Of a DNA stretch of 32,713 bases, positions 8,146-30,182 are shown piece by piece. The translations under genes and the position numbers were made by a program. Under the pieces are notes generated by a model, which saw nothing but the letters and a program-made list of their open reading frames with translations, did not search any database and was not told the DNA's origin. The stretch lies in the NCBI GenBank assembly GCA_027310725.1, contig DAIDAG010000060.1, positions 1 to 32,713 of the forward strand, read 5' to 3'. Position 1 is the first letter of the stretch. Every line of letters starts with the position of its first letter. The DNA is from Sideroxydans sp. (GTDB lineage: Bacteria > Pseudomonadota > Gammaproteobacteria > Burkholderiales > Gallionellaceae).

Positions 8146-8164
8146 TTGGTGAGCCAGGAGAAAA

Positions 8165-8460: not shown

Positions 8461-8485
8461 CTAAGTAACGTGTTGCAAAATTCTG

Positions 8486-10472: not shown

Positions 10473-10604
10473 ATGAACATGATGGTTACCGGTGATGCAG
10501 GTGTCATGGGCAGCAATTTGGCTGTTCACTGGCGGTATGCCATATTTCGACAGGGCATATCGCCCGATTCGCACAGACCACGCGCCACTTCCCGCTCCCT
10601 ATGA
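10473..10604 (+). pseudogene. 43-codon remnant of a nucleotide-sugar dehydratase start (rmlB-like), overlapping wzm
   Basis: The short frame begins MNMMVTGDAGVMGSNLAVHW, which matches the N-terminal Rossmann motif of dTDP-glucose 4,6-dehydratase and related enzymes (usual form VTGGAGFIGSNxVxHW). After about 22 residues the similarity ends. The frame stops at TGA 10602-10604, overlapping the wzm ATG at 10601 (ATGA). It is too short to be an enzyme. It may be debris of a lost rml gene that still acts as a translated leader for wzm. Confidence 0.6.
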
Positions 10605-11434
10605 TCGATCCGCACGCCAACCCACCCACTTCGCTTCCATCACTGGCTCGCAGCCTGTGGCGACATCGCGAATTGATAGTGCAGATGACCCGCCGCGAAG
10701 TGGTGGGGCGCTATCGTGGCTCTGTCATGGGCTTGGCCTGGTCGTTCTTCAATCCTATCCTGATGCTGGTGGTGTACACCTTTGTCTTCAGCGTCGTATT
10801 CAAAGCAAGATGGGGAACGGGCGGTGAAGAAAACCAAAGTAGCTTCGCCATCGTGCTGTTTGTAGGCATGATTGTATTTGGCTTGTTTGCGGAAATGGCA
10901 AACCGTGCGCCCGGATTGATTTTATCAAACGTCAACTACGTTAAAAAAGTCATTTTCCCGCTTGAGATACTGCCCGTTGTCGGTCTTGGTGCTGCATTGT
11001 TTCATTCACTGATTAGTTTGGGTGTGTTGTTGACCGCCATTTTGTTGATTAAAGGTAGTCTGGTTTGGACGGTCATTTTCTTTCCATTGATTCTCATGCC
11101 ATTGTTGATTGGCACGCTGGGGGTGGCTTGGTTTCTCGCTTCACTTGGTGTATTTGTACGTGATGTTGGGCAAACGATTGGCATTTTTACCACGGTGCTG
11201 ATGTTCATCTCGCCGGTTTTTTTCCCCATCAGCGCGCTTCCCGCAAAATTTCAAAAATGGCTAATGCTCAACCCTCTCACATTTGTAATTGAACAAAGTC
11301 GTGCCGTCATGATCTTTGGCAAACAGCCTGACTGGGTGGGGCTGGGAATTTGCACGGGTGCCAGTTTGATTTTGGCGTGGGCAGGGTACTGGTGGTTCCA
11401 AAAAACCAGAAAGGGGTTTGCCGATGTCCTCTAA
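10601..11434 (+). CDS. wzm: ABC-2 type polysaccharide exporter, permease subunit
   Basis: Wzm forms the inner-membrane channel that exports undecaprenyl-linked O-antigen chains to the periplasm. The 277-residue protein has a cytoplasmic amphipathic N-terminus with LIVQMTRREVVGRYRGS, then six hydrophobic helices (about 35-60, 75-95, 118-145, 148-172, 180-200, 243-262). It ends in the typical WFQKTRKGFADVL. Conserved SVMGLAWSFFNPILMLVVYTF supports the family. It overlaps the Wzt gene by 11 bases. Its presence means that chain polymerisation is cytoplasmic and no Wzy is required, which agrees with none being found here. Confidence 0.94.
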   Translation: MIDPHANPPTSLPSLARSLWRHRELIVQMTRREVVGRYRGSVMGLAWSFFNPILMLVVYTFVFSVVFKARWGTGGEENQSSFAIVLFVGMIVFGLFAEMANRAPGLILSNVNYVKKVIFPLEILPVVGLGAALFHSLISLGVLLTAILLIKGSLVWTVIFFPLILMPLLIGTLGVAWFLASLGVFVRDVGQTIGIFTTVLMFISPVFFPISALPAKFQKWLMLNPLTFVIEQSRAVMIFGKQPDWVGLGICTGASLILAWAGYWWFQKTRKGFADVL

Positions 11435-12878
11435 TCTAAGCACTTCTCCTTGCTATCAGGGAGACGGCCTGAAGGAGAGAGCGGACTCCAACGACATCGT
11501 CATCCGCGTAAGCAATCTCAGCAAGTGCTATCAGATTTATGAAGCACCGCGAGATCGTCTGAAGCAGTTCATCTTGCCTCGCCTAAGCAGATTGGCAGGG
11601 CGAGCGCCAAAGCAATATTTTCGAGAGTTTTGGGCCCTCACTGACGTTTCTTTCGAAATAAGAAAAGGTGAAACCGTCGGTATCATTGGACGCAATGGCA
11701 GCGGTAAATCCACGCTGCTACAGATGATCTGCGGCACGCTCAACCCCACCAGTGGAGTCATTCAAACCAATGGTCGCATCGCCGCCCTGCTGGAGTTAGG
11801 CTCAGGCTTCAATCCCGAATTCACCGGGCGAGAAAATGTGTATATGAATGCCTCAGTGTTGGGTTTGAGCAATGAAGAAGTTGATACGCGCTTTAATGAC
11901 ATCGTTGCTTTTGCTGACATTGGCGACTTTATTGAGCAACCTGTAAAAACCTATTCCAGCGGAATGATGGTGCGTCTCGCATTTGCTGTTATTGCGCATG
12001 TGGATGCTGACATATTGGTGGTGGATGAAGCACTGGCGGTGGGTGATGCCTTCTTTACACAAAAATGTATGAGGTTTTTACGAGGTTTTATGGAAAATGG
12101 GACCGTCCTGTTTGTCAGCCACGATAGCGGTTCAGTGAAAAATTTGTGTACCTCGGCTATTTGGTTAGAAAAAGGCCATCAAAGGTTAAATGGGTCTCCG
12201 GAAGAGGTGTGTAACGCATATCTGGAAAAGTCGTTACAAGATGTGTACGGCGAAAAATTTACGCTAGGTAAAATAGGGGATCAGCCAAGGGAAATATTGG
12301 CTGCGCACAAAACAATTAAAAACAAGACTATTATCGACTATAAAACAAAGGCATTGAGTAATGGCAATTTATTGTTGGCTACCGGATGGAAAACAGGTAT
12401 GGCGGAAGTTGTTTCTGTTTCAATGGTAAAAGTTGAGAACAGTACCTCCCCCGAGTTTGAAGGTGGCGAAAGAGTTAGGGTGGTTATTCGAGCGAAGGCA
12501 ATAGGAGCGCTTTCTAGCCCTATACTTGGATTCATATTGAAAGATCGACTGGGTCAAGAGTTATTTGGGGAGAACACTGTACCTGCCACTCATGGTGGGC
12601 ACAGTTTAGTGGGCGCTGGGCAAGAATTTGAGGCTGAATTTGTATTTAGGCTTCCCATGTTACAAAACGGTGAATATATGATGATGGTTTCATTAGCTGA
12701 TGGAGATACACTTAATCACGTCCAGCACCATTATCTTCATGATGCGATGCTAATAACGGTGTATTCCAGCAAGATAAAATTTGGGATTGTCGGAATCCCA
12801 TTTGAATTTGTTTCGTTAGCGATCGATTCAGGCCCGGCGTTTAGTATTGGCTCCCGCGAGCCGACTGTTAATAAATAG
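11424..12878 (+). CDS. wzt: ABC exporter ATPase with C-terminal carbohydrate-binding domain
   Basis: Wzt powers export through Wzm. The N-terminal ATPase has Walker A GRNGSGKST (89-97), the signature YSSGMMVRLAFA (from about 177) and Walker B DILVVDEALAVGD (from 196). The segment from about 325 to 484 is a beta-sandwich with GFILKDRLGQELFGENT, as in E. coli O8/O9a Wzt. There this domain recognises the modified non-reducing end of the glycan before export. The protein is therefore the long, chain-end-reading type, and the following carbamoyltransferase gene is a candidate for making such a cap. ATG 11424 is chosen over TTG 11418 because AAGGGG (11411-11416) is well placed. Confidence 0.95.
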   Translation: MSSNLSTSPCYQGDGLKERADSNDIVIRVSNLSKCYQIYEAPRDRLKQFILPRLSRLAGRAPKQYFREFWALTDVSFEIRKGETVGIIGRNGSGKSTLLQMICGTLNPTSGVIQTNGRIAALLELGSGFNPEFTGRENVYMNASVLGLSNEEVDTRFNDIVAFADIGDFIEQPVKTYSSGMMVRLAFAVIAHVDADILVVDEALAVGDAFFTQKCMRFLRGFMENGTVLFVSHDSGSVKNLCTSAIWLEKGHQRLNGSPEEVCNAYLEKSLQDVYGEKFTLGKIGDQPREILAAHKTIKNKTIIDYKTKALSNGNLLLATGWKTGMAEVVSVSMVKVENSTSPEFEGGERVRVVIRAKAIGALSSPILGFILKDRLGQELFGENTVPATHGGHSLVGAGQEFEAEFVFRLPMLQNGEYMMMVSLADGDTLNHVQHHYLHDAMLITVYSSKIKFGIVGIPFEFVSLAIDSGPAFSIGSREPTVNK

Positions 12879-12899: not shown

Positions 12900-14900
12900 A
12901 TGAATATATTCCCTAAATTTCCGGTAGGAAGCACACTTGGTATTAACTACAGTGGCATGCATGACAGCGCAATTGCGATAGTTACACCTGAAGGCCAGCC
13001 GATTTTTGCAATTTCTTTGGAGAGACTTTCTCGCGTTAAACAAGATGGGCGAACCTTAAAAGAATTACTTGCATCAATGCCTTGGGATCGAATTGATAAG
13101 GTTGCTATTTCTGCTCCAGAATTCCTTCGAGGTACTGACTCATGTAAAAGTAAACTTCTCTCGACTATCCTAGCTAAAACAAGACGAGCAGATACCCTAG
13201 CGCATGGGCCTGGCTTTTATGAGGCAATGAAAATGATCCCTTGTGAGAAAGTTTTCGTTGGACACCAAGATGCACATGCAGCCTCGGCTTTTTGGGGTAG
13301 CGGCTTTGAAGAGGCACTTTGCCTTACATATGACGGCGGAATGTCTAACGACATTTGGTTTGGCGGGTTGTATCAATGTGGTCGAGCCAGTGGCATACAA
13401 CCATTGGATCAATTTGATGCATTGCAATATGCAAAAGTGACAACGCTTTACACATTTGTTACTGCGTTGCTTGGTTTCATGCCTCTGAGGCATGAAGGAA
13501 AAATAACCGGTCTTGCCGCTTATGGGGAGCCCACAGAACGCTGCGCAAGTTTATTAAAGAAATGGTTTGAAGACGAGTATGCGGAAATAGAGGAAACACT
13601 TTATTGGGTGAATTGCTATGACGACAATGCTTTACCGCAGCTGATACCAAGTAGTTCAAAGTTATATCGTTACCGTTCGCAAATTGAGGGAATAAGTAAG
13701 GAAGAACTGGCAGCTTCACTACAGTATTTTGCAGAGAAACATGTTATTCATATTCTCGAAAAAGCTAGAGTTCTGGGATGGAAGTCCCCCAATATTTGTT
13801 TGGCAGGGGGGCTGTTCGCAAACGTAAAAATTAATCAGAAAATAGCAGAGTCCGGATTCAGTCAACTTTTTGTTGCTCCACCCATGACTGACGATGGGAC
13901 TGCGCTTGGTGCTGCTTGGCATGTGGCCGCAAGAGGAGCGGAGTTCAAGCCGCAAACTTTACATTCGATGTTCTTGGGCCCTGCGTATCCTAAAGAAATA
14001 TCATTGGAATTGATAAAGAAAGAGGGAATAAACTTTAAAGTTCTTGATACACCAACGACAACAATTGCTGAATTACTGGCTCGAGGCAGTATAGTCGCTG
14101 TCTTTCAGGGGGCAACCGAATTTGGGCCGCGTGCTTTGGGAAATCGTTCGATACTGGCACAAGCAACTCAATCAGATATTAATCGCAGTTTAAATGAACG
14201 ACTTAATCGTACAGAGTTTATGCCTTTTGCGCCCATGACGCGGGAAGAGGATGCGGAACTATGTTATTGCGACATTGGAAGTGTGAAGCATGCGGCAGAA
14301 TTTATGACTGTTACGGTGAACTGTAAAGATATGATGAAACAATTGTGTCCGGCTACAGTACACGTTGATGGAACTGCTCGCCCCCAAATAGTCAGTGCGC
14401 AGCACAACCCATTTATTCACGAAGTGCTCACGGAATACAAAAGCCTAACTGGGAATCCTTCAATCGTAAACACATCGTTTAATGTGCACGAGGAGCCAAT
14501 TGTTTGTACTCCAAAAGACGCATTGCGCGGATTTTTTGAGTCTGCACTTGAGTATTTGTATATTGAGGGTGTAGGTCTCATTTCATTTGAGGAAAATAAA
14601 TCGGTTGCGATTCGATACTTACATGAAAAAACAAAACGCAAAAGTCAGAAAGATATATCTAATGAATCATTAATTAACTTTCTTGATCATGCGCTTTCAG
14701 AAAGAACAGATTGGTTAGAGAAAACTAGCCAAGACTTACAGGCGCGCACACAAGAATTAGTTGATACGCGTCAAACGCTAGTCGAGCGAACTGTAGCACT
14801 TGAGAAAACTAGCCAAGATTTACAGTCGCGCGCACAAGAAATCGAAAAATTTAATCATGCATCAATATTTAAGCGCATTTTCATGAATAGAAATCAGTGA
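12900..14900 (+). CDS. NodU/CmcH-family carbamoyltransferase with C-terminal coiled coil
   Basis: Members transfer a carbamoyl group from carbamoyl phosphate, via ATP, to a hydroxyl of a sugar or antibiotic. The Kae1-like N-terminal domain shows the metal-binding GHQDAHAASAFW (His122, His126) and LTYDGG (Asp145). The C-terminal domain shows EFGPRALGNRSILA and FMPFAPMTREEDA. At 666 residues it is longer than the usual 560-620. The extra is a heptad-rich coiled coil (about 600-650) with a 28-residue internal repeat, ending in a basic, aromatic KRIFMNRNQ tail. It starts 22 bp after wzt. The base composition is noticeably AT-richer than the core genes. It probably carbamoylates the exported glycan or its precursor; the acceptor is unknown. 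Confidence 0.9.
   Translation: MNIFPKFPVGSTLGINYSGMHDSAIAIVTPEGQPIFAISLERLSRVKQDGRTLKELLASMPWDRIDKVAISAPEFLRGTDSCKSKLLSTILAKTRRADTLAHGPGFYEAMKMIPCEKVFVGHQDAHAASAFWGSGFEEALCLTYDGGMSNDIWFGGLYQCGRASGIQPLDQFDALQYAKVTTLYTFVTALLGFMPLRHEGKITGLAAYGEPTERCASLLKKWFEDEYAEIEETLYWVNCYDDNALPQLIPSSSKLYRYRSQIEGISKEELAASLQYFAEKHVIHILEKARVLGWKSPNICLAGGLFANVKINQKIAESGFSQLFVAPPMTDDGTALGAAWHVAARGAEFKPQTLHSMFLGPAYPKEISLELIKKEGINFKVLDTPTTTIAELLARGSIVAVFQGATEFGPRALGNRSILAQATQSDINRSLNERLNRTEFMPFAPMTREEDAELCYCDIGSVKHAAEFMTVTVNCKDMMKQLCPATVHVDGTARPQIVSAQHNPFIHEVLTEYKSLTGNPSIVNTSFNVHEEPIVCTPKDALRGFFESALEYLYIEGVGLISFEENKSVAIRYLHEKTKRKSQKDISNESLINFLDHALSERTDWLEKTSQDLQARTQELVDTRQTLVERTVALEKTSQDLQSRAQEIEKFNHASIFKRIFMNRNQ
14718..14840 (+). 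repeat. Intragenic direct repeat encoding four-heptad coiled-coil units
   Basis: Two 39-bp copies (14718-14756 and 14802-14840) differ at three positions by eye and are offset by 84 bp, i.e. 28 residues or four heptads. Both encode EKTSQDLQ(A/S)R(T/A)QE. The exact heptad multiple keeps the coiled-coil register, so copy number could change without breaking the helix. Confidence 0.8.
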
Positions 14901-15524: not shown

Positions 15525-16535
15525 ATGAAAAAGCGTGTCTTGATCACTGGTATTACAGGAATGGTTGGTTCTCATCTATTGGACTATCTACTTCTGCACA
15601 CTGACTGGGAAATATGGGGAATGCTGCGTTGGCGCAGTCCTCTGGATAATTTGACTAACCACATTGATCGTATCAATCGTTCTGATCGGATTAAGCTTGT
15701 CTATGCAGACTTGCGCGACACCATGTCTATCAATCATGCGGTTCAACTTTGCAAACCAGACTATGTGTTTCATCTGGCAGCACAAAGTTATCCGAAAACC
15801 TCATTTGATTCACCGCTTGATACGCTTGACACAAATATACAAGGGACAGAGCGCCTATTGGGTGCCCTAAGACAATATGCGAAAGATGCCGTGATTCACG
15901 TCTGTGCATCTTCTGAAGTATTTGGGAGAGTGCCAAAAGAAAAACTGCCTATCAACGAGGAATGCACATTTCACCCCGCGTCTCCTTATGCGATTTCAAA
16001 GGTGGGTACCGATTTGGTTGGCCGATATTACGCAGAAGCCTATGACATGTGTGTAATGACGACTCGCATGTTCACCCATACCGGCCCGCGCCGTGGAGAT
16101 GTGTTTGCAGAATCTACCTTTGCAAAACAAATTGCCATGATTGAGGCAAATCAAATTCCACCTATCGTGAAAACAGGGAATCTTGATTCATTGCGCACGT
16201 GGGCAGACGTCAGAGATGCAGTTCATGCTTATTACCTACTGGTAACAGTCAATCCAACTCCTGGGGAATACTACAACATTGGTGGAACCTACACCTGCTC
16301 AGTACGAGAAATGCTCGACACACTTATAAGTTACTCGACACGTAAAGATATTAAAGTTGAAACTGATCCTGAGCGACTACGCCCAATTGATGCTGATTTG
16401 CAAGTCCCGGATACAAGAAAATTTCAGCAGCACACTGGCTGGAAACCGGAAATTAGTTTTGAAACGACTATGCACGACTTACTTGATTATTGGCGCGAAA
16501 GAGTTTCAGGATCGCAAGCCTTCCTGACACGTTAA
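15525..16535 (+). CDS. GDP-sugar 4,6-dehydratase, closest in pattern to GDP-heptose dehydratases (DmhA/WcbK-like)
   Basis: An extended short-chain dehydrogenase of 336 residues that would convert a GDP-hexose or GDP-heptose to its 4-keto-6-deoxy form. It has the NAD(P) motif GITGMVGSHLLDYLL (9-23), SSE (129-131) and Tyr155-x3-Lys159. Segments such as IWGMLRWRSPLDN, AAQSYPKTSF, THTGPRRGDVFAEST and RLRPIDADLQ resemble the GDP-D-glycero-D-manno-heptose dehydratases of Campylobacter/Burkholderia/Yersinia, as I recall them, more than plain Gmd, which has GQDGSYL at the first loop. GDP-heptose genes lie downstream in the same cluster, and no manA/manB/manC is visible. The next gene is the matching reductase. 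Family certain, heptose preference probable. Confidence 0.85.
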   Translation: MKKRVLITGITGMVGSHLLDYLLLHTDWEIWGMLRWRSPLDNLTNHIDRINRSDRIKLVYADLRDTMSINHAVQLCKPDYVFHLAAQSYPKTSFDSPLDTLDTNIQGTERLLGALRQYAKDAVIHVCASSEVFGRVPKEKLPINEECTFHPASPYAISKVGTDLVGRYYAEAYDMCVMTTRMFTHTGPRRGDVFAESTFAKQIAMIEANQIPPIVKTGNLDSLRTWADVRDAVHAYYLLVTVNPTPGEYYNIGGTYTCSVREMLDTLISYSTRKDIKVETDPERLRPIDADLQVPDTRKFQQHTGWKPEISFETTMHDLLDYWRERVSGSQAFLTR

Positions 16536-16545
16536 GAGAAACCTT

Positions 16546-17478
16546 ATGAACAAACAAGACAAGATACTAATTACTGGCGCAAAGGGGCTGGTTGGCTCTG
16601 CTCTAGTTGAACACCTTAAGAATGAAGGATATGCAAATGTAATCGAGGTTGGTCGTCAAGAATGCGACTTGGTTGATCCGGTATCGACGCGCCAGTTTTT
16701 TGAGGCAACTCGACCAGACTATGTTTTTCATGCGGCCGCACGTGTCTACGGGATCATGGGAAACATGAAAAATAAGGCACTGTCGTTTTATGACAACGTG
16801 ATGATCAATACCAATGTGGTTGATGCCTCCCAGAAAGTTGGTGTGCGCAAGATCACAGTGATGGGTACTGGCGCAGTCTACCCATTCCCATCGCCAGGGT
16901 TGCCGTTAAGAGAAGAAATGATTTTTCTCGGTGTGCCTCATCCGGCAGAAGATTCTTATGGACATGCCAAGCGAGCGATGCTTGCCATGCTTGCAGCCTA
17001 CCAAGAGAGTTATGGAATGGAATGGGCTTATGTTGTTTCCTGCAATTTGTTCGGTCCTAGAGATAAGTTCGACACGGAATTCGGGCATGTTGTGCCTTCT
17101 CTGGTTAAGAAATTTTTTGATGCCAAGCAACGTGGCGAGAAAGTAGTGGTTTGGGGGGACGGTTCCGCACAAAGAGATTTCATGTATGTGAAAGACGCTG
17201 CGCGAGTTGCCCTTGCGATCATGGAGAACATAAAAGGTGCCGCCAATATTGGGAGCGGTACGGTCTACAGAATCAGGGACATCGTTGAGATGTTGGCAGA
17301 AATTTCAGGCATGACTGGACAGGTTCTATGGGATAGTGAAAAACCAAATGGACAGGACTACCGTTCCTATGATTTAACAAAAATCAATTCAATAGGGTTC
17401 AAGTGTCAGTACACAATTCGAGAGGGTTTGGAAGAAACTTGGAACTGGTATTCCGAGCAGATGGGAAAAGCCAAGTGA
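16546..17478 (+). CDS. GDP-4-keto-6-deoxy-sugar reductase, fucose-synthase fold (DmhB/WcaG-like)
   Basis: A 310-residue SDR that probably reduces the 4-keto product of the preceding dehydratase. The cofactor motif is GAKGLVGSAL (11-20). The catalytic pair is Tyr138-x3-Lys142 (SYGHAKRAM). The characteristic GIMGNMKNKALSFYDNV stretch marks the GDP-fucose synthase group. That group normally has SSC before IYP, where the Cys drives 3,5-epimerisation; here the segment is GTGAVYP, so the Cys is missing, while the partner His in GHVVPSL is kept. A reductase without epimerase action would give GDP-6-deoxy-D-manno-heptose, as DmhB does. It begins 10 bp after the dehydratase gene and overlaps the next gene (TGATG). 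Confidence 0.85.
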   Translation: MNKQDKILITGAKGLVGSALVEHLKNEGYANVIEVGRQECDLVDPVSTRQFFEATRPDYVFHAAARVYGIMGNMKNKALSFYDNVMINTNVVDASQKVGVRKITVMGTGAVYPFPSPGLPLREEMIFLGVPHPAEDSYGHAKRAMLAMLAAYQESYGMEWAYVVSCNLFGPRDKFDTEFGHVVPSLVKKFFDAKQRGEKVVVWGDGSAQRDFMYVKDAARVALAIMENIKGAANIGSGTVYRIRDIVEMLAEISGMTGQVLWDSEKPNGQDYRSYDLTKINSIGFKCQYTIREGLEETWNWYSEQMGKAK

Positions 17479-19499
17479 TGTCTGAGATTAACTCAAGCCT
17501 TCGTATCCTTCTTATTTCTCAATGGCCGAATGTTAAAAATGGCGAGTACGAACTTATTGAAAAGATCAAACAGACCGGTTACAAAATCGCGGTAGTAGAT
17601 TATTTTGGTTTTGATGTGACAACTGGAGAATGTCTTAATAGAGCATCTCTTATTGATAATTACGATTTTGCCATTTCGTTCCACTACGACACGCCAAAGT
17701 TCATCGATATACCAACCTATCTTTGGGTCGCCAATCCTTTGGAGTTTATGCATCTGCGGGGTGATTACCGCAATGTTCTTATGCATCACCTACGCTCTTA
17801 CGATGATTATCTTTATAACGGATCAGATACCTTAAAGGCTCATATCAAGAGAGTGGTTGGAAGCAAATGGATGGATTCAGGGCTGGAAATGTTCCCCTCT
17901 TGCGCTACCTCGGCTTTAACATTACCGACGGGTCTTGCCGACAAGAATGGAGTTGCTTCCCGAAAAATATTCTATTGCGGTGTTAACTGGGAACGAGGGA
18001 TAGACCGAGCTGGGCGAGCGCAAGGGCTGCTGGACATTCTCCAACAAAAGCAAGTTGCAGAATTCTATGGGCCCGACAAGTTAGAAGGTATCAGCCCATG
18101 GGCGGGATTCACTTCCTACAAAGGTGAAATTCCCTTTGATGGGGTGACTATGACACGCGTCATGAGGGAATATGGTGCCGTTCTTGCCGTTTCTTCTCCC
18201 GCACACATGAAATCTCGCACATCATCCAGCCGAGTATTCGAGGGAATTGCTGCAGGTGTGCCAGTCATCTCAGATGAGAACCCTCATGTTCGAAGACTCT
18301 TTGGCGATCTGGTGTATTACTTTAAAGGTGAGACTGAAGAGGAGAGGGCTGCCACAATAATTCAAGCTTTAAGTCAGATTATTGAGAACCCGAAAGATGC
18401 TGAGGAGCGCGTGGTTAAGGCTCAGCAGATTATGGCCTCGCGTATGTGTTTCGATCCATGCTTCGAGCGCATTCTAAAAGTTTCCAAGCAATACCAGAAA
18501 CAAGAAGGGCATGACTTTAAACAAGTAGACATTTTCCTTTTTCATCACGATCCAGATCCTCTGGCGCTAGGCGGCAGCAAAGAATTTAACAACTTTCACC
18601 ACATCCTTCGTTCAGCTGCTTTTGCTGCTCAAGCGCGACAAGCCCATGTAAGAGTTATTTACCTGACAGACGGTTCCTCACCCGAACCATCACTTGACGA
18701 GTTACCTGCAAACGTTGAGGTTGTTTCGTTCAACTTGCGAGATATAACAGATGAAAATTGGGATCGACTTCGTTTGGGGGAAAAGATCACCTTGCTTTCG
18801 AATAAAGCAAATGCCGATTTCGTTACATTTTTCACGCAATTTGATTTTCCGCACTACGACTATTTCACTAAATCTCTGGATTGGTTTGCTGAAAATGAAC
18901 TTGCAACGGTGAGCGGTATTCATGTGGGTGGATTTTTCATCAATGATTTGATGTTAAAGGCCCCGCTTGGCACAGCAGATATATTGAGAAACAATACTCC
19001 AAGTGCAATGTACCAGTGGACCCAAAACAGCTTTACGGAACACCAATTGGCAATGATCACTTTTTCCCGTGGATCTCTTGCGCTAATTGAAAGTGACAAG
19101 GTTGCGCGATTTGATTCTATTCTCCCGGTTGTTGTGATTGCATCAGCGATTTCTAGCGACCTTCCTGTACATCGCTCTCGGCACATCGTAGTTCGTGTTC
19201 AGTACAGCCATTTTAAGCGACACTACGAGGCATACACCTGTGCGGCAAGCAGAGGCTTCTGGGCGCAGCATTACGATTTGGTGACAAACTATAATCACGA
19301 GCTGAATGCGCTTTATGATCTCGTACATGAATCACCAATAGGTACACTGATAGCCGATAAAGTTTCCGGTCATGCGTTGCTCTCGATGCCACCGATAGAT
19401 CCCGCTGTTCATGTAGTCAACCAATTTATTAGTCGGTTGCGTCCGCTGTATCGTTTGTTCAAGAAGGTGCGAAATGTTTTGCAGCTGAAGAAAAAATGA
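17478..19499 (+). CDS. Two-domain glycosyltransferase
   Basis: The 673-residue protein appears to hold two transferase-like modules. Residues 1-345 have a GT-B look, with ILLISQWPNVKNGEYEL at the start and a nucleotide-sugar-binding SSSRVFEGIAAGVPVISDE near 250-268, as in CgeB/family 1-type enzymes. Residues about 350-600 begin VDIFLFHHDPDPLALGGSKE and contain NKANADFVTFFTQFDFPHYDYF, resembling a GT-A-like domain with acidic motifs. The last 50 residues are basic. The ATG at 17478 overlaps the previous TGA (TGATG) and is preferred to upstream in-frame starts lying inside the reductase gene. It could add two successive sugars; acceptors and donors are unknown. Confidence 0.75.
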   Translation: MSEINSSLRILLISQWPNVKNGEYELIEKIKQTGYKIAVVDYFGFDVTTGECLNRASLIDNYDFAISFHYDTPKFIDIPTYLWVANPLEFMHLRGDYRNVLMHHLRSYDDYLYNGSDTLKAHIKRVVGSKWMDSGLEMFPSCATSALTLPTGLADKNGVASRKIFYCGVNWERGIDRAGRAQGLLDILQQKQVAEFYGPDKLEGISPWAGFTSYKGEIPFDGVTMTRVMREYGAVLAVSSPAHMKSRTSSSRVFEGIAAGVPVISDENPHVRRLFGDLVYYFKGETEEERAATIIQALSQIIENPKDAEERVVKAQQIMASRMCFDPCFERILKVSKQYQKQEGHDFKQVDIFLFHHDPDPLALGGSKEFNNFHHILRSAAFAAQARQAHVRVIYLTDGSSPEPSLDELPANVEVVSFNLRDITDENWDRLRLGEKITLLSNKANADFVTFFTQFDFPHYDYFTKSLDWFAENELATVSGIHVGGFFINDLMLKAPLGTADILRNNTPSAMYQWTQNSFTEHQLAMITFSRGSLALIESDKVARFDSILPVVVIASAISSDLPVHRSRHIVVRVQYSHFKRHYEAYTCAASRGFWAQHYDLVTNYNHELNALYDLVHESPIGTLIADKVSGHALLSMPPIDPAVHVVNQFISRLRPLYRLFKKVRNVLQLKKK

Positions 19500-19909
19500 C
19501 TTGCTCGAAAGACAGACTGATTGAAGGAAAAAAAATTCGCTTCGTCGTAGTTGGACTTATTGGTGCAACAATTGAAATAATTTTATTTTCAGTACTCGTT
19601 AGAGCCGGGCTGGGCGTTGCATCCAGTAATTTTTTGGCATTTCATTGCGCATTTTTGATTTGTTTCTTTTTGCATTATTATTTTACGCATCAGAAGCGCT
19701 ATAACGGAATGCACGTCATCGTTGGAGGCTTGCTCAAATACGCAGGCTTGATGTATGTCCAGTTACTTGTTGGGACAATTTTGCTATGGATATTGATTGA
19801 TAAATATGGTTGGGTTGCAGAGTTTGCGAAAATTGCTCAAATCGGCGTTGTGACTCCAGCAAGCTATTTGGTGCAAAAATATTTTATTTTTAGTGAAAAC
19901 AAAAAATGA
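19496..19909 (+). CDS. GtrA-like small membrane protein (polyprenyl-linked sugar flippase)
   Basis: This 137-residue protein has four hydrophobic helices (about 13-33, 38-58, 72-100, 112-132) with short basic loops, and the family phrases IRFVVVGLIGATIE, FLHYYFTHQKRY and SYLVQKYFIF. GtrA proteins are thought to flip an undecaprenyl-phosphate-linked monosaccharide across the inner membrane so that it can be added to O-antigen in the periplasm. It overlaps the gene before (ATGA) and the gene after (ATGA). Its usual partners, a GtrB-type transferase and a GT-C-type enzyme, are two and three genes downstream. Confidence 0.88.
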   Translation: MTCSKDRLIEGKKIRFVVVGLIGATIEIILFSVLVRAGLGVASSNFLAFHCAFLICFFLHYYFTHQKRYNGMHVIVGGLLKYAGLMYVQLLVGTILLWILIDKYGWVAEFAKIAQIGVVTPASYLVQKYFIFSENKK

Positions 19910-20826
19910 AAATTCTCTTAACTGGAGCTACTGGATTTCTGGGTGCTCGATTACTGGAATATCTCCTTAAGAAAAACTACCAAGTTATTATCATCAAGCG
20001 CCAAAGTACCAACCTGAAGCCGCTTGTTGAGCGGTTTGGAAAGTTGGAAGCTTGGGATTGTGAAGATGACGAACTGGATAATCTGTTTCGCGTGCATCAC
20101 GATGTTGATGTAATAGCTCATGCTGCGACTGACTATGGCCGTAATGGCTCAAGCCCAACAGCAACGTTTTGGACCAATGAAGTCTTTCCCGTTAAGTTGC
20201 TCGAACTCGCGATTCAGCACAAGGTGAAACTGTTCGTTAACATGGACACTTTTTTCAACACCCAAAAAGCAGAATACGACTACCTTGGGGCTTACACCCT
20301 ATCGAAGCGTCACTTTCAAGAATGGGGTAAGTACTGTGGAGATGCCGGTCGGATACGCTTTGTGAATTTGCGACTATTCCATTTATATGGATCGGGGGAC
20401 GGTTCCGGGAAGTTCGTACCGGCAATTGTAAGGCGTTGTTTGGCGGACGAAGAAATTGATCTTACGGATGGCGAACAAAGACGCGACTTCATTCATGTTG
20501 ATGATGCTGTTGCGGCTGTAGGTGTGGTGTTTGAGGCTGAGTTACCGCAGGGCGCAGGCTATAGACATTATGATGTGGGTACGGGCACCTCAATACGCGT
20601 TCGAGACTTTGTGGAGTCGGTGAAAAAACTTTGTGGTGGTAATGCAAAATTAAATTTTGGCGCGTTGCCCAATAGAAAAGGTGAGTTTCAAGATTCCTCT
20701 GCAGATACGGAAGCATTACGAGCAATCGGATGGAAACCTAAGATTAATATCGATGCAGGAATAATTGAAGTAATAGAACATATTGGTCGACATGCGCTGC
20801 AAAATTCGGACACTAATAAAAAATGA
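19906..20826 (+). CDS. NAD(P)-dependent reductase resembling CDP-abequose synthase (RfbJ)
   Basis: An SDR of 306 residues (RfbJ is about 299). The cofactor loop is GATGFLGARLLEYLL (7-21). The active-site pair is Tyr130-x3-Lys134 in GAYTLSKRHFQEWG. Several segments match the abequose/paratose-synthase group as I remember it: NMDTFFNT, FVNLRLFHLYGSGDG.KFVP, TDGEQRRDFIHVDDAV and the ending RAIGWKP. In that group the enzyme reduces the 4-keto group of CDP-3,6-dideoxyhexulose. The genes for that intermediate, rfbF, rfbG and rfbH, lie 3.3 kb downstream on the same strand. Whether the product is abequose, paratose or another epimer cannot be decided here. It sits between gtrA- and gtrB-like genes with 4-base overlaps on both sides. 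Confidence 0.82.
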   Translation: MKILLTGATGFLGARLLEYLLKKNYQVIIIKRQSTNLKPLVERFGKLEAWDCEDDELDNLFRVHHDVDVIAHAATDYGRNGSSPTATFWTNEVFPVKLLELAIQHKVKLFVNMDTFFNTQKAEYDYLGAYTLSKRHFQEWGKYCGDAGRIRFVNLRLFHLYGSGDGSGKFVPAIVRRCLADEEIDLTDGEQRRDFIHVDDAVAAVGVVFEAELPQGAGYRHYDVGTGTSIRVRDFVESVKKLCGGNAKLNFGALPNRKGEFQDSSADTEALRAIGWKPKINIDAGIIEVIEHIGRHALQNSDTNKK

Positions 20827-21791
20827 CTACCAGCCAAAAAAAATTAATCTCTTTGATCGTTCCCGTATTCAATGAAGAAGAGAACATCGGCCCACTCTAT
20901 GATGCAGTGGTGCCCCTCATCAAACAACATGAAGGCAAGTATGATTTTGAGCTGGTTTTTACTGATAATCACAGCTCTGACAGTACGTACAACATACTCA
21001 ACGAATTACGTGAACGTGACCATCGAGTGCGCGTCTTCCGCTTTTCGCGTAATTTTGGTTATCAAAAATCCATTCTTACCGGATACCTCAAGGCACGCGG
21101 GGATGCACTAATCCAGCTTGATTGTGACTTGCAGGATCCGCCAGCACTTATTACTGAATTTCTGAAACATTGGGAAGACGGCTGTGCAGTGGTTTACGGA
21201 GTGAGACGTAGCCGCAAAGAAAGCGCGGTGTTGCATTATGCGCGGAAACTGTTTTATCGACTTGCCGACTATTTGAGCGATGATGATCTACCAGTAGATG
21301 TCGGTGACTTTAGATTGATTGATAAAAAAGTGGCGGATGTACTACGGCAAGTAGATGATGCCCAGCCCTATCTGAGAGGAATGATCGCTGCAATGGGTTT
21401 TAGGCAGCATGGAATTCCATATGATCGGCATAACCGGGAACGCGGTACGAGTAATTTTCGGTTCAAGGACTTGGTTGGTCTCGCAATTGACGGGATACTG
21501 AATCATTCTATTGTTCCGTTGCGCATGGCTACATTTTTTGGAATCGGCATATCCATAATGACAATTCTCGCCATCATTGGCTACAGCGTGAGCAAGTTAT
21601 TTTTCGGCGTAAACTGGCCGGCTGGATTTACCACGCTAGCAGTTCTCGTGTTGGCGGGCATAAGTGTTAATGCACTATTTCTCGGCATTATTGGGGAATA
21701 TCTGGGCCGAATTTATCAGCAGGTGAAGAAAAGGCCGCTGGTGATTATCGAGTCTGCGTTGGATGACGAAAACATGAGGGGCAATCGTTGA
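20823..21791 (+). CDS. GtrB/DPM-like polyprenyl-phosphate glycosyltransferase
   Basis: This 322-residue family 2 enzyme would load a sugar from a nucleotide donor onto undecaprenyl phosphate at the cytoplasmic face. It has SLIVPVFNEEENIGPLYDA at the start, VFTDNHSSDST (Asn in place of the commoner second Asp), the metal-binding QLDCDLQDPP, and RNFGYQKSILTGYLKARGD. Near the end are two transmembrane helices (about 237-262 and 270-292), as in GtrB, and a short basic tail. It is coupled to the abequose-synthase-like gene by ATGA, and the membrane transferase gene follows with TTGA. The donor is most simply CDP-3,6-dideoxyhexose; this is inference from gene order. Confidence 0.9.
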   Translation: MTTSQKKLISLIVPVFNEEENIGPLYDAVVPLIKQHEGKYDFELVFTDNHSSDSTYNILNELRERDHRVRVFRFSRNFGYQKSILTGYLKARGDALIQLDCDLQDPPALITEFLKHWEDGCAVVYGVRRSRKESAVLHYARKLFYRLADYLSDDDLPVDVGDFRLIDKKVADVLRQVDDAQPYLRGMIAAMGFRQHGIPYDRHNRERGTSNFRFKDLVGLAIDGILNHSIVPLRMATFFGIGISIMTILAIIGYSVSKLFFGVNWPAGFTTLAVLVLAGISVNALFLGIIGEYLGRIYQQVKKRPLVIIESALDDENMRGNR

Positions 21792-24124
21792 AAGCGTTAC
21801 TAGAAAAGAAGATGAATGTGCGTGCATATTTGACACAATTTAATGAATCATTTTTCGTGGAAGACCGATTTCTGAGCCTGATGTGGGCTCTGATTCTTCC
21901 TGCGATATTCTTTAGTTCGCAACTCTTTGCACCTGACCCGCAATTCAATTTTTTCGGGGATTTATACAATCTTTATTTTCCTCAATTCGTTGAGGGATAC
22001 CACTTGGCCAAGAACGGCGCCTTCACCGGCATTGATTTTCTGACAAATAACGGTGCATCAGCTTACTTCCTGAGACCAAACATACCGGTCTTCTATCCCA
22101 TTTATCAACTGGTCTACTTGTTATTTAGTTTTGAAACTATTGAGGCGTTAGCGCGTGCCTATGTAGGCGTTCTGTATGCTCATTCTGTTATTGCACTCTA
22201 TTTCAGTATGAGAATAGGACGTAAGTATTTTCAGTTGGATAATGCAACGTCGTTGTTGCTGGGCGTGCTCTATTTTGGTGCTATTGCAAACTCTTACCCT
22301 ATACCGCCATTTTATTTTGTTGCTTCTCTTTTTCCACTGTTGCTATATTTCGCGCTTAGGTCGGTCGAGGAGTCGGCATGGTGGCGGTTAGCGTTATATT
22401 CTTTCTCTTACGTTTTGGTTTTTCTGTCAGGATACCTGCCTTTAGATGTAAATGCAGTATCGTTGGCATTGTTGTTTGCAATAGTTTATTTCTGGCAGGT
22501 CAGGGGCGAAAAACAACAAATTCTCACTCGATTAATCAGATTATTAGTACCTGTTGTGTTGGCCTCTGTAGTTGTATTGCCAATATATTTAGCGGTGTTG
22601 CAATATCACAAGCTTGTTCCAGGGCTACCAGAAGGGGTGTGGTATGCCGCACACGAATTCTCATATACTTCTAAGGATATCTTTGCGCTTCTTTCTAGGG
22701 CTTTTGTTGGAAGTCGACCAGGTGGTGGAGAGTTTCCAAGTATTTTATTAGGTGTTGCACCAGTTTTGCTGTTGATACTTGCGTTTACACAACGAAGAAA
22801 AATCGCACTTTCACCGTTGGAGGCTGGTGTTGTTGCCATATCAACGCTCATTTTTTCCTTTTACCTTCTTCTTACTTTTGGACGTGCTTCAGGCTTACCC
22901 GATCTTTTCTATTATTTAGCACCTGGTTTGGGAAAGATGCACATTTACGGACGATTTTTGCCAATCGCTTCGTTTTTCTTTTACCTTGTGTTCGCAATCA
23001 TCTTCAAACATCTCATCGTGATGAGATCGGAATTACCTATAGCGCGATGGATTTCTGGTCTTTTCGTGGCACTGATTATTGTCCACGGATATGGTCAACT
23101 CGGTCAGCCTGAGTCTATGTGGACTGAGTTGTTATCCATCGAGTTGTTGATGTTTGTATTTATACTAATCGGAATGTCAGCGCATCAGAGTTTTTATGCA
23201 TATGCAGGCGTTATTTCGGTGTCGTTTTTCATTCATGCTGCAAATTTTAATTCGCATGTTAACTGGTCCAATCTTGACGCTGTTCCCCCACATCAAAATG
23301 AAGTTGTTTTTTCTCAGGAGCGTCGTGATGCGTTAAGGAATTATTTCAAAGAATATGCTGATAAAAAAATGATTAAATTTGTAGACATCACTTCAAGCAT
23401 CGACAAAACTAACGGTGTTCTGTTGAACTATCCGTGGTTGGTGCAAGATACGGTAAAACTATCAAACTATATGGGCTATGAACTTCACACTTCGGTTGAT
23501 CGTGAATATCTGGCGCGTTTTCCATGGTTCGGTAAAATCAGTGTACCTTGGTTACTGCGTACTGAAGCAGATTTTGTCATCTATGATCCAACTGCGTGGA
23601 GTCAATTGGCTGGTGAACTGGAGCCATTTATCAATCATGAGGTGCCAGAATTCGATATCGGTTATGGCTATAAGGCAGCCAAGCTAAAGGATGCATCAGG
23701 GCTAGTAGACTATGTACCCAACCGCAATCCAGGTGATTTCGACAACGGTATCGTGCGCGTTTTTAATGCCGCGGGAACGGCAGCCGTATCGGACTTTGAT
23801 ACAGATTTTGCGTCGCACGTGCGTTTTGAAGTTGATAGTTCTTTACCAGTCACGGTGCGATACCTGCTTTTCCCAAATAAGATGATGGAGCTGCGTATAG
23901 ACGGTGGGCACGCCGACGTGACGCCGAAGGATGGTTTGCTTGAATTTTCGCTCCCTGCAGGTCACCATAAGATTGAGTATCGCTACAAGAACGTGTTGCA
24001 CCAGATATTTGTGAAGGAATACTTCCTCTATCTAGTCGCTCTTCTAGGCATCTTGGGATGGCGGACCTGGGTGGTATTTACCCAACTAAGAACTAAAAAA
24101 TTATCAAAAGGATGGTGGTCATGA
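21788..24124 (+). CDS. Large multi-pass membrane protein, GT-C/YfhO-like (GtrC role)
   Basis: The 778-residue protein starts with a short cytoplasmic tail and a first helix (about 30-47). A periplasmic loop with acidic residues Asp50 and Asp58 ([12 protein letters not shown]) follows, the position of the catalytic acid in GT-C enzymes. About ten more helices lie between 85 and 480, and a soluble, presumably periplasmic beta-rich domain (about 490-745) precedes one last helix and a basic end. In serotype-conversion gene sets the third gene is such a protein and attaches the flipped sugar to O-antigen. The TTG start overlaps the gtrB-like stop and has AGGGG at 21777-21781; ATG 21812 is the alternative. 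The sequence is AT-rich. Confidence 0.8.
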
Positions 24125-24894
24125 AAGTGGTTATTCTTGCCGGTGGTCTGGGCACTCGCATTAGCGAAGAAACATCCACCCGACCCAAGCCTATGGTGGA
24201 AATCGGCGGCAAGCCGATCTTGTGGCACATCATGAAATCCTACTCGGCCCACGGCATCCATGACTTTGTGATCTGCTGCGGCTACAAAGGCTATGTCATC
24301 AAGGAATACTTCGCCAACTATTTCCTGCACATGTCGGATGTGACTTTCGACATGGAGCGCAACAAAATGGAAGTGCACCAACGATATGCTGAACCTTGGA
24401 GAGTAACCCTGGTGGACACGGGCGAGGAGACGATGACAGGGGGGCGCCTGAAACGAGTAAAGGACTACGTCAAGGATGAAGAGGCGTTCTGTTTAACTTA
24501 TGGCGATGGCGTGAGTGATGTGAATATCACGGAGTTGATTGCCTTCCACAGGTCACAAAAAGTCAAAGCTACCCTGACCGCAGCCATTCCTCCCGGGCGC
24601 TTCGGTGCATTGGATATGGGCGGCAACAAGGTCAATAGCTTCCGCGAAAAACCCAAGGGCGATGGTGCCATGATCAACGGCGGTTTTTTTGTGCTATCCC
24701 CGCAAGTCATAGACTACATCGTTGACGACAAAACAGTATGGGAGCGCGACCCGTTGGAGAGGTTGGCAGAAGAAGGAGATCTCGCTGCTTTTCATCACAA
24801 CGGTTTCTGGCAACCGATGGATACGCTACGCGACAAGATGCATCTTGAGGAGTTGTGGCAATCCGGCAAGGCGCCGTGGAAAGTCTGGAAATGA
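24121..24894 (+). CDS. rfbF: Glucose-1-phosphate cytidylyltransferase
   Basis: RfbF (DdhA) makes CDP-glucose from glucose-1-phosphate and CTP, the entry to CDP-3,6-dideoxyhexoses. The 257-residue protein has exactly the usual length. It opens [19 protein letters not shown] with [19 protein letters not shown]. It also contains [26 protein letters not shown] and the ending [14 protein letters not shown], all typical of this enzyme rather than of RmlA. ATG 24121 is chosen because it forms the same ATGA overlap with the preceding gene as its neighbours do; an in-frame ATG at 24112 would add three residues. GC content rises again from here. Confidence 0.96.
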
Positions 24895-25970
24895 ATGCTG
24901 CTTTCTGGAAAGGCAAGCGCGTCCTGCTGACCGGACACACTGGCTTTAAAGGCAGTTGGCTATCGCTCTGGTTGCAAACCATGGGTGCGCAAGTAGTGGG
25001 ATATGCACTAGCGCCTCCGTCGAATCCCAGCTTGTTCAATGTCGCTGGAGTTGGCAAGGGAATGACCAGCATTATCGGTGACATCCGCGATTTGGAGCAT
25101 GTGCGCAAAATATTTGCCGAACATCAACCTGAGATCGTGATCCACATGGCGGCACAGGCACTGGTGCGTTATTCCTATGCTGAGCCAGTCGAGACCTACT
25201 CAACCAATGTGATGGGCACGGTGAATCTACTCGAAGCGGTGCGTGGCACAAAGAGTGTAAAGGTTGTGGTGAATGTGACTAGCGATAAATGTTACGAGAA
25301 CCGGGAATGGGTGTGGGGCTACCGCGAGAACGAAGCGATGGGCGGATACGACCCATACAGCAACAGCAAGGGCTGTGCAGAGTTGGTGACGGCTGCCTAC
25401 CGCAACTCATATTTCCATCCAGAGAAATATAAAGAGCATGGCGTTGCCATAGCTTCCGGTAGAGCAGGCAACGTCATCGGCGGTGGCGATTGGGCGGAAG
25501 ACAGACTCATCCCGGATATCATGCGTGCAATTACGCAAGGCAAGCCGGTCAACATCCGCAGCCCGCATGCGATCCGTCCATGGCAGCATGTGTTGGAGCC
25601 GTTGTCCGGCTATCTGGCTCTGGCGCAAAAGCTCTACGAAGAAGGTGCGACCTATGCGGACGGGTGGAACTTCGGGCCGAACGATGAAGATTCCAAACCT
25701 GTGGAATGGATCGTAGAAAAACTGACCGAAGCTTGGGGTGAGGGGGCAAGTTGGGTGCTGGATGGCGGCGATCATCCACATGAGGCGCATTACCTGAAGC
25801 TGGATTGTTCCAAGGCAAAAGCGCGACTGGCCTGGCATCCGAGATGGCACCTGGAAGATGCTCTGGCGGCGATCGTCGATTGGCAACGTGCCTATCGGGA
25901 TGAGAAAGACATGCATGAGCTGACATTGCGTCAGATCAATGCGTACAACGATAGTATTCAAAAACACTAA
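24891..25970 (+). CDS. rfbG: CDP-glucose 4,6-dehydratase
   Basis: RfbG (DdhB) converts CDP-glucose to CDP-4-keto-6-deoxyglucose with bound NAD. The 359-residue length equals the Salmonella enzyme. The NAD loop is [34 protein letters not shown] and [19 protein letters not shown] carry the Thr/Ser and Tyr-x3-Lys active residues. [20 protein letters not shown] and [14 protein letters not shown] are typical of this family. The ATG overlaps the rfbF stop (ATGA). Longer in-frame starts upstream lie inside rfbF and are rejected. Confidence 0.96.
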
Positions 25971-25984
25971 GCGGGAGTATTGAA

Positions 25985-27298
25985 GTGGATAAGGCAGAAA
26001 TCAAACAGCAGATATTGAATTTGGTAGAGCAGTACAGTACGTTGCAATATGCAGCAAAGCCATTTAACGCGGGTAGCAGTGTCATCCCGCCTTCCGGCAA
26101 AGTGTTGGGTGCCGCCGAACTGAAAAATATGGTTGAAGCATCCCTGGATGGATGGCTCACCGCTGGCCGCTTCAATGAGGCATTTGAAAAGCGCTTTGCC
26201 GAATTCGTCGGGGTCCCTTACGCGCTAACTACTACCTCCGGTTCATCGGCGAATCTGTTGGCATTCACCGCACTGACTTCACACAAGTTGGGTGCGCGCG
26301 CGCTGAAGCCGGGCGATGAAGTCATCACCGTTGCGGCCGGCTTCCCCACCACTGTGAACCCCATGCTGCAGAACGGCATGGTGCCGGTATTTGTGGATGT
26401 GGACATTCCCACCTACAACATCGACCCGAAGAAGATCGAAGCGGCAATCAGCCCAAAGACAAAAGCCATCATGGTTGCGCACACACTGGGCAATCCGTTC
26501 GATCTGGATGCGGTCATGGCGTTGGCCAAAAAGCATGATCTATGGGTTATCGAAGATTGCTGCGATGCGCTCGGTTCGCGCTACAAAGGCCAGCATGTCG
26601 GCACCTTCGGCCACATCGCTACCTGCAGTTTCTATCCGGCGCACCACATCACCATGGGTGAAGGCGGCATGATATTCACCAAAGACCGCGACCTGCGCAC
26701 CATCATCGAATCCTTCCGCGACTGGGGCCGCGATTGTTATTGCGCGCCGGGTTGCGATAACACTTGCGGCAAACGTTTCGGCTGGAAGCTGGGATCGTTG
26801 CCCGAAGGTTACGACCACAAGTACACCTATTCGCATCTGGGCTACAACCTCAAGGTCACCGACATGCAGGCGGCCTGTGCACTAGCTCAGATGGATAGGC
26901 TGCCGGAATTCGTCGAGGCGCGAAAACGTAACTTCGCTTTCCTCAAAGAGCGTCTGAAATCCTGTGAAGAATTCCTGATCCTGCCGGAAGCCACCGCAGG
27001 CAGCGAACCCTCCTGGTTCGGCTTTCCCATCACATTGCGCGAAGCGGCAAATGTGAATCGCGTCGAGCTGTTGAAATATCTGGATCAATATAAGATTGGT
27101 ACTCGTTTGCTGTTCGCGGGCAACCTCACGCGCCAGCCTTATTTCGAAGGCCGCGCTTACCGTATCAGTGGCGAGCTCACCAATACCGACAAGATCATGA
27201 ACGACACCTTGTGGATCGGAGTGTATCCAGGGCTGAGCGAGGAAATGCTGAGTTTTGTGGTTGAGAAGATTGAAGCGTTCTTTGGCGTGAATTTCTAG
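25985..27298 (+). CDS. rfbH: CDP-4-keto-6-deoxy-D-glucose 3-dehydrase (E1, PMP and 2Fe-2S)
   Basis: RfbH (DdhC) removes the C3 hydroxyl of CDP-4-keto-6-deoxyglucose, the key step to 3,6-dideoxy sugars. It has an aspartate-aminotransferase fold but keeps PMP free because the usual Lys is His: [12 protein letters not shown] places His220 there. The iron-sulfur ligands fit the known spacing exactly: Cys193, Cys251, Cys253 and Cys261 (C-x57-C-x-C-x7-C). The length of 437 equals the Salmonella protein. The start is GTG 25985 with GGGAG just upstream. The enzyme needs a flavin/iron-sulfur reductase (RfbI/DdhD), and none is encoded in this window. Confidence 0.96.
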
Positions 27299-28539: not shown

Positions 28540-28569
28540 TACGTGCCGATAGGCTTAAGGAGAAATTTG

Positions 28570-29601: not shown

Positions 29602-30182
29602 AGAGCTATATCAGCACACAGATAGTGGAAGCGCAGCGCGTGATGATCGGGATGGAGGCAGATCTATCCCTAAAAGCAAGTATCGAGGCTGCAGCAGTGG
29701 CCTGTATTGCTTCCCTGGCGACAGGAGGGAAAATATTGCTTGCCGGTAACGGAGGCAGCGCTGCGGACGCACAACATATTGCCGGAGAATTTGTAAGTCG
29801 CTTTGCTTTTGATCGTCCCGGCTTGCCTGCAATCGCATTGACGACGGATAGCTCTATCCTCACCGCAATTGGCAATGATTATGGTTATGAGAAGTTATTT
29901 GCCCGCCAGGTGCAAGCGCATGGAAATAAGGGGGATGTATTCATTGGATACTCAACCTCGGGTAAATCTCCAAATGTTCTCAGGGCATTCCAAGAAGCGC
30001 GGGAACGGGGGCTCGTTTGCATCGGTATGACGGGTAACCGCGGTGGCCCGATGCGCGATCTTTGCGACCATTTGCTGGAAGTGCCGTCAGGCGATACCCC
30101 TAAAATTCAGGAGGGGCATTTGGTGTTGGGGCACATTTTGTGTGGGTTGGTTGAAAATGCGATATTTCAGGCTGCAGAATAA
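29598..30182 (+). CDS. gmhA: Sedoheptulose-7-phosphate isomerase
   Basis: GmhA isomerises sedoheptulose-7-phosphate to D-glycero-D-manno-heptose-7-phosphate, the first heptose-specific step. The 194-residue SIS-domain protein has [55 protein letters not shown] and the C-terminal [16 protein letters not shown], all characteristic. The start is set by the ATGA overlap with hddA, and the end overlaps hddC (TAATG). Upstream in-frame starts would run into hddA. Confidence 0.96.

Follow-up and report, generated by a model that had tools for sequence, protein, structure and literature searches.

The window analysed here comprises positions 1 to 32,713 of contig DAIDAG010000060.1 of Sideroxydans sp. 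(assembly GCA_027310725.1). A run of genes within it probably encodes, with a likelihood that we put at about 0.7, a Gtr-type three-component system whose donor is a cytidine diphosphate (CDP)-linked 3,6-dideoxyhexose, the sugar being loaded onto a lipid, flipped and then attached, in the periplasm, to a polysaccharide exported by Wzm/Wzt. In the predicted pathway, RfbF, RfbG and RfbH would produce CDP-4-keto-3,6-dideoxyglucose, which the reductase encoded at 19906 would convert to CDP-abequose or CDP-paratose. GtrB, with an Asn at its base-contact position, would take the sugar off CDP and load it onto undecaprenyl phosphate, GtrA would flip the lipid-linked sugar, and the GT-C-like protein encoded at 21788 would attach it as a side branch to the exported polysaccharide. 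The gene families, the gene overlaps, the tie of the GtrB clade to CDP-sugar genes and the Asn were read from the sequence, and from them we infer the donor, the lipid intermediate, flipping, GT-C activity and the acceptor. An earlier note on this DNA had proposed the gtr route for the dideoxy sugar; lipid loading by GtrB gained support from an rfbF/G/H-linked clade and an Asp-to-Asn exchange, and the biochemistry is predicted.

Association of a GtrB clade with CDP-sugar genes

The window GtrB has the features of a GtrB-type GT2 enzyme, namely a PF00535 domain and two C-terminal transmembrane (TM) segments, and its best solved relatives were GtrB of Synechocystis (residues 9-310) and ArnC. Relatives were sought in 398 genomes of the phylum, taken to be Pseudomonadota, and 86 of these, the source genome included, had a match at the threshold of E 1e-55 or better. 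Besides the window's own, 40 regions were fetched as a first set and 63 as a second set; second GtrB copies in L229, L233 and L275 were excluded from the tree and the counts. Genes of the rfbF/G/H group were detected near GtrB in 11 of the first 40 regions (in L258, the stretch contained rfbH, and rfbG lay 11.4 kb away), while an rmlA, rmlC or gmd-like gene was detected near GtrB in none of the 39 scored regions of this set (L252 was dropped). A control on the 39 genomes indicated that rfbG was present in 20 and rmlA in 34 (38 copies); 11 of the 20 for rfbG versus 0 of the 38 rmlA copies lay no more than 11.4 kb from the sampled GtrB (Fisher p 7e-7). In the second set, an rml gene was found near GtrB in 2 of 63 regions.

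Phylogenetic analysis placed this linkage in a single group. A 49-row GtrB tree, comprising the first 40 regions, seven plasmid rows, L025 and the window, contained a 22-row clade (support 100/99) in which 20 rows were rfb-linked; none of the other 27 rows was linked. The linkage trait required 3 changes on this tree versus 15.6 in shuffles, and 0 of 500 shuffles were as low. Addition of the second set by a quick method gave a 112-row tree, in which the window GtrB fell in a 32-row clade (Shimodaira-Hasegawa-like approximate likelihood ratio test, 99). An rfbF/G/H gene was present within ∼11.4 kb in 23 of these 32 rows versus 0 of 80 outside (p 6e-17), or in 20 of 29 when three rows known or picked via rfb genes (the window, L025 and L272) were removed (p 3e-15), these p values being inflated by near-copies and shared descent. 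Genome-wide, rfbG was present in 22 of 23 clade genomes (15/15 and 7/8 in the two sets) versus 16 of 62 others (5/24 and 11/38).

A similar pattern was observed on plasmids. A GtrB match occurred in 166 plasmid records; of the best 60, 24 had a GtrB of at least 48% identity and 36 one below 40%. All 24 of the former held rfbG within 9 kb (21 by coordinates, three by inspection of the record); they came from Sinorhizobium, Ensifer, Roseibium, Labrenzia, Palleronia, Leisingera and Legionella adelaidensis and included many near copies. In the latter, rfbG lay within 10 kb in at least 1 of 36 (Methylovirgula), as judged from the best 60 of 105 rfbG records; the Methylovirgula region held both rml and rfb genes. 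Overall, these results indicated that the GtrB clade is specifically tied to the CDP-sugar genes rfbF/G/H and that the commoner rmlA shows no such tie in the 39 control genomes.

The earlier note had suggested looking for a conserved gtrA-rfbJ-gtrB-gtrC order. That exact order was not seen in the loci examined; linkage of CDP-sugar genes, a short-chain dehydrogenase/reductase (SDR) and GtrB does recur in rearranged form. The arrangements included rfbG-rfbH-SDR-GtrB-10TM protein (L268), rfbFGH-thiamine pyrophosphate (TPP) enzyme-SDR-GtrB (L239), rfbFGH with a TPP enzyme and SDR-GtrA-GtrB farther along (L025), rfbF-rfbG-RfbH-like-SDR-GtrB-GtrA (L197), GtrA-multi-TM-rfbF-rfbG-DegT-methyltransferase-SDR-GtrB (Leisingera and Roseibium) and C-methyltransferase-oxidoreductase-GtrB-methyltransferase-GtrA-rfbF-rfbG (Legionella adelaidensis). 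Plasmid clusters of Sinorhizobium, Ensifer, Roseibium, Palleronia and Leisingera, of the form rfbF-rfbG-RfbH-like-(methyltransferase)-SDR-GtrB, resemble the window in having a GtrB of the same clade adjoining the SDR and rfbF-rfbG but differ in gene order and in their RfbH homologue, which has the His, but not the Cys set, described below. Those of Palleronia, Roseibium and Leisingera carry an extra methyltransferase (a Pfam C-methyltransferase in Palleronia, by annotation only in the others), and no characterisation of any of these plasmid clusters was found in the literature searched.

Two further features of these loci were observed. TPP enzymes resembling that of the L025 rfbFGH cluster were found near Asn-type GtrBs in L025, L239, L246, L253, L256, L258, L275 and L298, and may mark a yersiniose-like branch within this clade. 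RfbH homologues with His in place of the pyridoxal phosphate (PLP) lysine but without the Cys set were detected in L195, L197, L198, L269, L270 and L271; perhaps these are ColD-like 3-dehydratases acting on a CDP-sugar.

Residue 49 and the donor nucleotide

Position 49 of the window GtrB matched Asp43 of the Synechocystis enzyme in a gap-free alignment, 51 residues ahead of the DxDLQD motif. Asp43 hydrogen-bonds N3 of uridine diphosphate (UDP) (PMC5526996), and in poplar CesA8 the Asp of DDG lies within hydrogen-bond distance of a uracil ring nitrogen (PMC10592267); uracil is not mentioned in the accessible text of the original GtrB paper (PMC4728340). The Asp that would mark a UDP-glucose-type GtrB was replaced in the window by Asn49. 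This residue was Asn in 22 of 22 clade rows and Asp in 27 of 27 non-clade rows of the first tree, and Asn in 32 of 32 clade rows and Asp in 78 of 80 others of the 112-row tree. Within the second set, 12 proteins had Asn, 3 of them with rfb genes near, and 51 had Asp, 0 with rfb genes near (p 0.006). Ser83, Arg141, Asp179 and Pro182 likewise split clade from non-clade, fully or nearly, in the 49 rows.

The N3 of uracil bears a hydrogen; that of cytosine does not and accepts a hydrogen bond. As cytosine N3 accepts rather than donates, exchange of Asp (an acceptor) for Asn (a donor) is a plausible UDP-to-CDP switch. The earlier note had named use of UDP-glucose or another donor by the GtrB-like enzyme as a finding that would overturn its proposal, and both Asn49 and the clade linkage disfavour a UDP donor. 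The annotated Salmonella abequosyltransferase RfbV shares the DNxSxD motif with the window GtrB and reads DNASTDGT there, and a GT2 protein within the paratose-gene cluster of a second Salmonella record has DNASTDGT too. As a stand-alone mark of CDP use DNxSxD was rejected, being non-specific among other GT2 proteins (Asn in 5 of 11 whose locus had no rfbG).

On balance, these patterns make it more likely than not that a deep GtrB clade across Pseudomonadota consists of CDP-sugar:undecaprenyl-phosphate transferases in which the base-reading Asp has been swapped for Asn, that lipid-phosphate donors supply dideoxyhexoses and their relatives (C-methyl-branched and probably yersiniose-type sugars) for addition in the periplasm, and that one residue predicts UDP versus CDP. 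The yersiniose-type sugars were judged probable because TPP enzymes adjoin several clade members.

Organization of the cluster and its genome

The source metagenome-assembled genome (MAG) comprises 3.03 Mb in 80 contigs, with 65% completeness and 2.7% contamination. Gene calls from 9428 to 31434 were consistent with a polysaccharide cluster, which begins with a GT2 protein, Wzm, Wzt, a carbamoyltransferase, Gmd-like and Fcl-like SDR proteins and a 698-residue transferase, continues with GtrA, the reductase, GtrB, an orphan multi-TM protein, RfbF, RfbG and RfbH, and ends with a GT4-like protein and a heptose set. The pairing of a Wzm permease with a Wzt ATPase bearing a Wzt_C domain is that of ATP-binding cassette (ABC)-dependent polysaccharide export, and GtrA was the sole PF04138 match across the MAG. 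Every gene from the flippase to rfbH was found where the earlier note had placed it, and its statement that 4-base overlaps occur at nearly every junction was borne out. Four overlaps (19496-19499, 19906-19909, 20823-20826 and, with a TTG start, 21788-21791) were read from the junction bases as ATGA or TTGA, chaining the 698-residue transferase, gtrA, the reductase, gtrB and the multi-TM gene. A further two would result from starts at 24121 for RfbF and 24891 for RfbG, which we chose and judged likelier; RfbH follows a gap of ∼14 bases without overlap.

Table 1. Coordinates of features in the window
Feature	Position	Strand	Basis
Wzm-like ABC-2 permease	10601..11434	+	PF01061, 84 bits
Wzt-like ATPase, C-terminal Wzt_C domain	11418..12878	+	PF00005 and PF14524
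Glycosyltransferase (698 residues), shares 4 bases with gtrA	17403..19499	+	PF13524; junction bases
GtrA-like flippase	19496..19909	+	PF04138, 73.5 bits, cut-off 26.1
CDP-4-keto-3,6-dideoxyhexose C4-reductase (abequose or paratose synthase type), SDR	19906..20826	+	
GtrB-like polyprenyl-phosphate glycosyltransferase, Asn (rfb-linked) clade	20823..21791	+	sll0501 E 7e-60; 32-row all-Asn clade
Asn49 codon, aligned with Asp43 of Synechocystis GtrB	20967..20969	+	Alignment
Orphan multi-TM protein, putative GT-C transferase	21788..24124	+	TTG start 21788; ATG at 21812
RfbF glucose-1-phosphate cytidylyltransferase	24112..24894 (likelier start 24121)	+	TIGR02623, 478 bits, cut-off 300
RfbG CDP-glucose 4,6-dehydratase	24855..25970 (likelier start 24891)	+	TIGR02622, 523 bits, cut-off 278
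RfbH, E1-type 3-dehydrase	25985..27298	+	NF011936, 766 bits, cut-off 423

The CDP-3,6-dideoxyhexose pathway was represented by RfbF, RfbG and RfbH, all scoring over their NCBIfam cut-offs. Alignment of RfbH with its Salmonella counterpart indicated that the His replacing the PLP lysine and four Cys residues are kept, which we take to be the pattern expected of an E1-type 3-dehydrase. The reductase was 35.4% identical to the annotated Salmonella CDP-abequose synthase and 29.2% identical to the Salmonella CDP-paratose synthase. In a 24-row tree it grouped with both of these enzymes in a clade of 14 rows (100/99) but lay outside a 9-row subclade (81/90) that holds all six tyvelose-epimerase-linked rows, including the Salmonella paratose synthase. 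This position gives a weak lean to abequose over paratose, so that CDP-abequose is slightly favoured as the product, with CDP-paratose as the alternative. The description of this protein in the earlier note as abequose-synthase-like thus held at the level of the clade, the tree not separating abequose from paratose. Scans with the reductase yielded at least 80 loci in named genomes, mostly weaker SDR matches, and 80 weak loci in viral contigs; no match was found in phages.

The protein encoded at 21788 is predicted to span the membrane about 10 times, with a loop of 270 residues ahead of the last TM segment. It had no match in Pfam (even at E 10) or NCBIfam and none that was meaningful in PDB. 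Apart from the source genome, no relatives were detected in the order (399 genomes, E 1e-10), the family or the phylum (120 and 398 genomes, E 1e-5; the genome sets overlap), nor were any found in plasmids or viral contigs. Five multi-TM partners that were compared formed separate families by phmmer, and the window protein matched no other open reading frame in the fetched loci. The earlier note had called it a GT-C membrane enzyme; as no family matched, the label of putative GT-C transferase reflects only length and hydrophobic segments.

A second rfbFGH set, 86% identical to that of the window at the DNA level, was detected on MAG contig C31. The end of C31 and the start of contig C20 share 141 exact bases, and C20 continues with a reductase, a protein 68% identical to Salmonella CDP-paratose 2-epimerase, a Wzx-like flippase and an RfbV-like GT2 protein. 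Together, these contigs represent a second dideoxyhexose cluster of conventional Wzx type, and the two rfb clusters may derive from one cell or from two mixed strains. Within the window, G+C content was 43.2% from gtrA to the putative GT-C gene and 53.6% across rfbFGH, a contrast suggesting that the gtr cassette and the rfbFGH genes were probably brought together recently.

Other genes of the cluster were also considered. The Gmd-like and Fcl-like proteins (15525-17478) and the HddA-, GmhA-, HddC- and GmhB-like genes of the heptose set (28543-31434), which mostly score under NCBIfam cut-offs, suggest guanosine diphosphate (GDP)-heptose, perhaps 6-deoxy-heptose, in the backbone. The carbamoyltransferase (12900-14900) is NodU-like and has a repetitive C-terminal tail. 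Outside the cluster, a PIN-domain protein lies near an MqsA-antitoxin-like protein (8113-8863, minus strand).

Alternative explanations and comparison with known systems

A number of observations weigh against a dideoxyhexose-specific Gtr system. Nine of the 32 clade rows had no rfbF/G/H gene nearby in the stretch examined (L253, L275, L276, L280, L281, L290, L298, L330 and L264, the last with a contig end 459 bases away); a TPP enzyme lies near GtrB in L253, L275 and L298, and an L025-like SDR in L298 and L330. Of the excluded second copies, that in L229 is D-type and lies ∼9.6 kb from rfbG, and those in L233 and L275, unplaced in the tree, have Asn and no rfb genes nearby. RfbH was found in ten other genomes of the class, from which eight loci were fetched (two below the family cut-off were left out), and within the stretches examined a clade-type GtrB was present in only one of the eight (L025). 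None was detected in the stretches examined of the nine best reductase loci from named genomes (L032-L040) or of reductase locus L022; most dideoxyhexose loci examined are thus without a clade-type GtrB, although several of the stretches are short. Asn49 may be of single origin, so that Asn and CDP-gene linkage are not independent, and Asn was also detected in two GtrBs outside the clade, one adjoining rmlA. The motif could be read in 17 further GT2 proteins of the fetched loci, and Asn occurred in 6 of 6 from rfbG loci as well as in the 5 of 11 mentioned above. The Asp of DLQD is predicted to contact sugar O3 (PMC5526996), and the window GtrB keeps it though its product would be without O3. 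No gene for the partner reductase of RfbH was seen in the window or its contig; two 29-30% matches to the Salmonella E3 protein, CDP-6-deoxy-delta-3,4-glucoseen reductase, were found elsewhere in the incomplete MAG. Finally, the orphan status of the 21788 protein was matched by an unusable single-sequence structure model (predicted local distance difference test score, 43).

An ordinary gtr trio acting on UDP-glucose or another common donor, with the reductase merely lying in the operon and a soluble cytoplasmic transferase adding the dideoxyhexose, appears unlikely. GtrB-type prototypes do use UDP-sugars (PMC11127046), the cluster encodes three more transferases (at 9428, 17403 and 27349), and an RfbV-like GT2 is present in the second cluster of the MAG; the tie of the GtrB clade to CDP-sugar genes, Asn49 and the uniform Asp of the non-clade GtrBs in the first tree argue otherwise. 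Furthermore, no RfbV/WbaV-like transferase was found among 20 window proteins apart from a weak match to GtrB itself (E 1.5e-5), although a dideoxyhexosyltransferase of another family would escape this test. The contrast with Salmonella drawn in the earlier note was upheld in this respect, the RfbV-like protein of the MAG lying in the Wzx-type cluster.

Use of a CDP-sugar by GtrB would also be compatible with a different acceptor, such as core, lipid A or protein, or with a role of the lipid-linked sugar as an assembly intermediate, in place of a side branch added after ABC export. No acceptor can be read from an orphan GT-C candidate, and a Wzm or Wzt match was found in 0 of 9 linked loci inspected, within the stretch examined. 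The module nevertheless lies in a single gene run with Wzm, Wzt and transferases, and Klebsiella is known to branch an ABC-exported polysaccharide in the gtr manner (PMC11127046), so that we consider these alternatives unlikely. The G+C contrast and the 86% identity of the two rfbFGH copies suggest recent joining of pieces, which would fit a chance clustering of modular cassettes that move horizontally and are not coupled in function. Such chance clustering is very improbable given that GtrB recurs with rfbF/G over deep divergence and in varied order, and that the reductase sits between gtrA and gtrB.

The proposed CDP-dideoxyhexose Gtr system shares with GtrA-GtrB-GtrC O-antigen glucosylation in Shigella and Salmonella an adjacent flippase, polyprenyl-phosphate glycosyltransferase and variable multi-TM enzyme, but the donor there is UDP-glucose, whereas the window has CDP-dideoxyhexose genes built in and a GtrB with Asn at the base contact. 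With the abequose branch of Salmonella group B (RfbFGH, CDP-abequose synthase and RfbV/WbaV) it shares the nucleotide-sugar pathway and, in RfbV, the DNxSxD motif. In Salmonella, a soluble-type cytoplasmic transferase adds abequose prior to flipping; in the window, a Gtr set would replace that transferase. A galactose-adding system of Klebsiella, which we take to be the one named GmlABC, is also comparable. It performs three-component branch addition to an ABC-exported O-polysaccharide but adds galactose (PMC11127046), whereas the window would add a CDP-derived dideoxyhexose. Pentofuranose three-component systems, as predicted for the window, use a GT-C enzyme for extracytoplasmic addition from a lipid-phosphate donor, but that donor is made from phosphoribosyl pyrophosphate via an enzyme without GtrB similarity (Kelly 2024, PMC11127046). 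Three-component systems have been described for glucose, galactose and pentofuranoses (PMC11127046). In line with the statement in the earlier note that no characterised example was known, the literature searched, chiefly open-access and abstract-level, held no description of a CDP-dideoxyhexose Gtr system.

These results suggest that the carrier enzyme is a member of an unrecognised GtrB family fitted to CDP-linked rather than UDP-linked sugars. If so, periplasmic glycan decoration would extend, via CDP-linked deoxy sugars, to the antigenically important 3,6-dideoxyhexoses, and a second means of placing these sugars would exist beside the cytoplasmic one of Salmonella. A one-residue rule would then allow the donor nucleotide of a Gtr system to be read from genomes.

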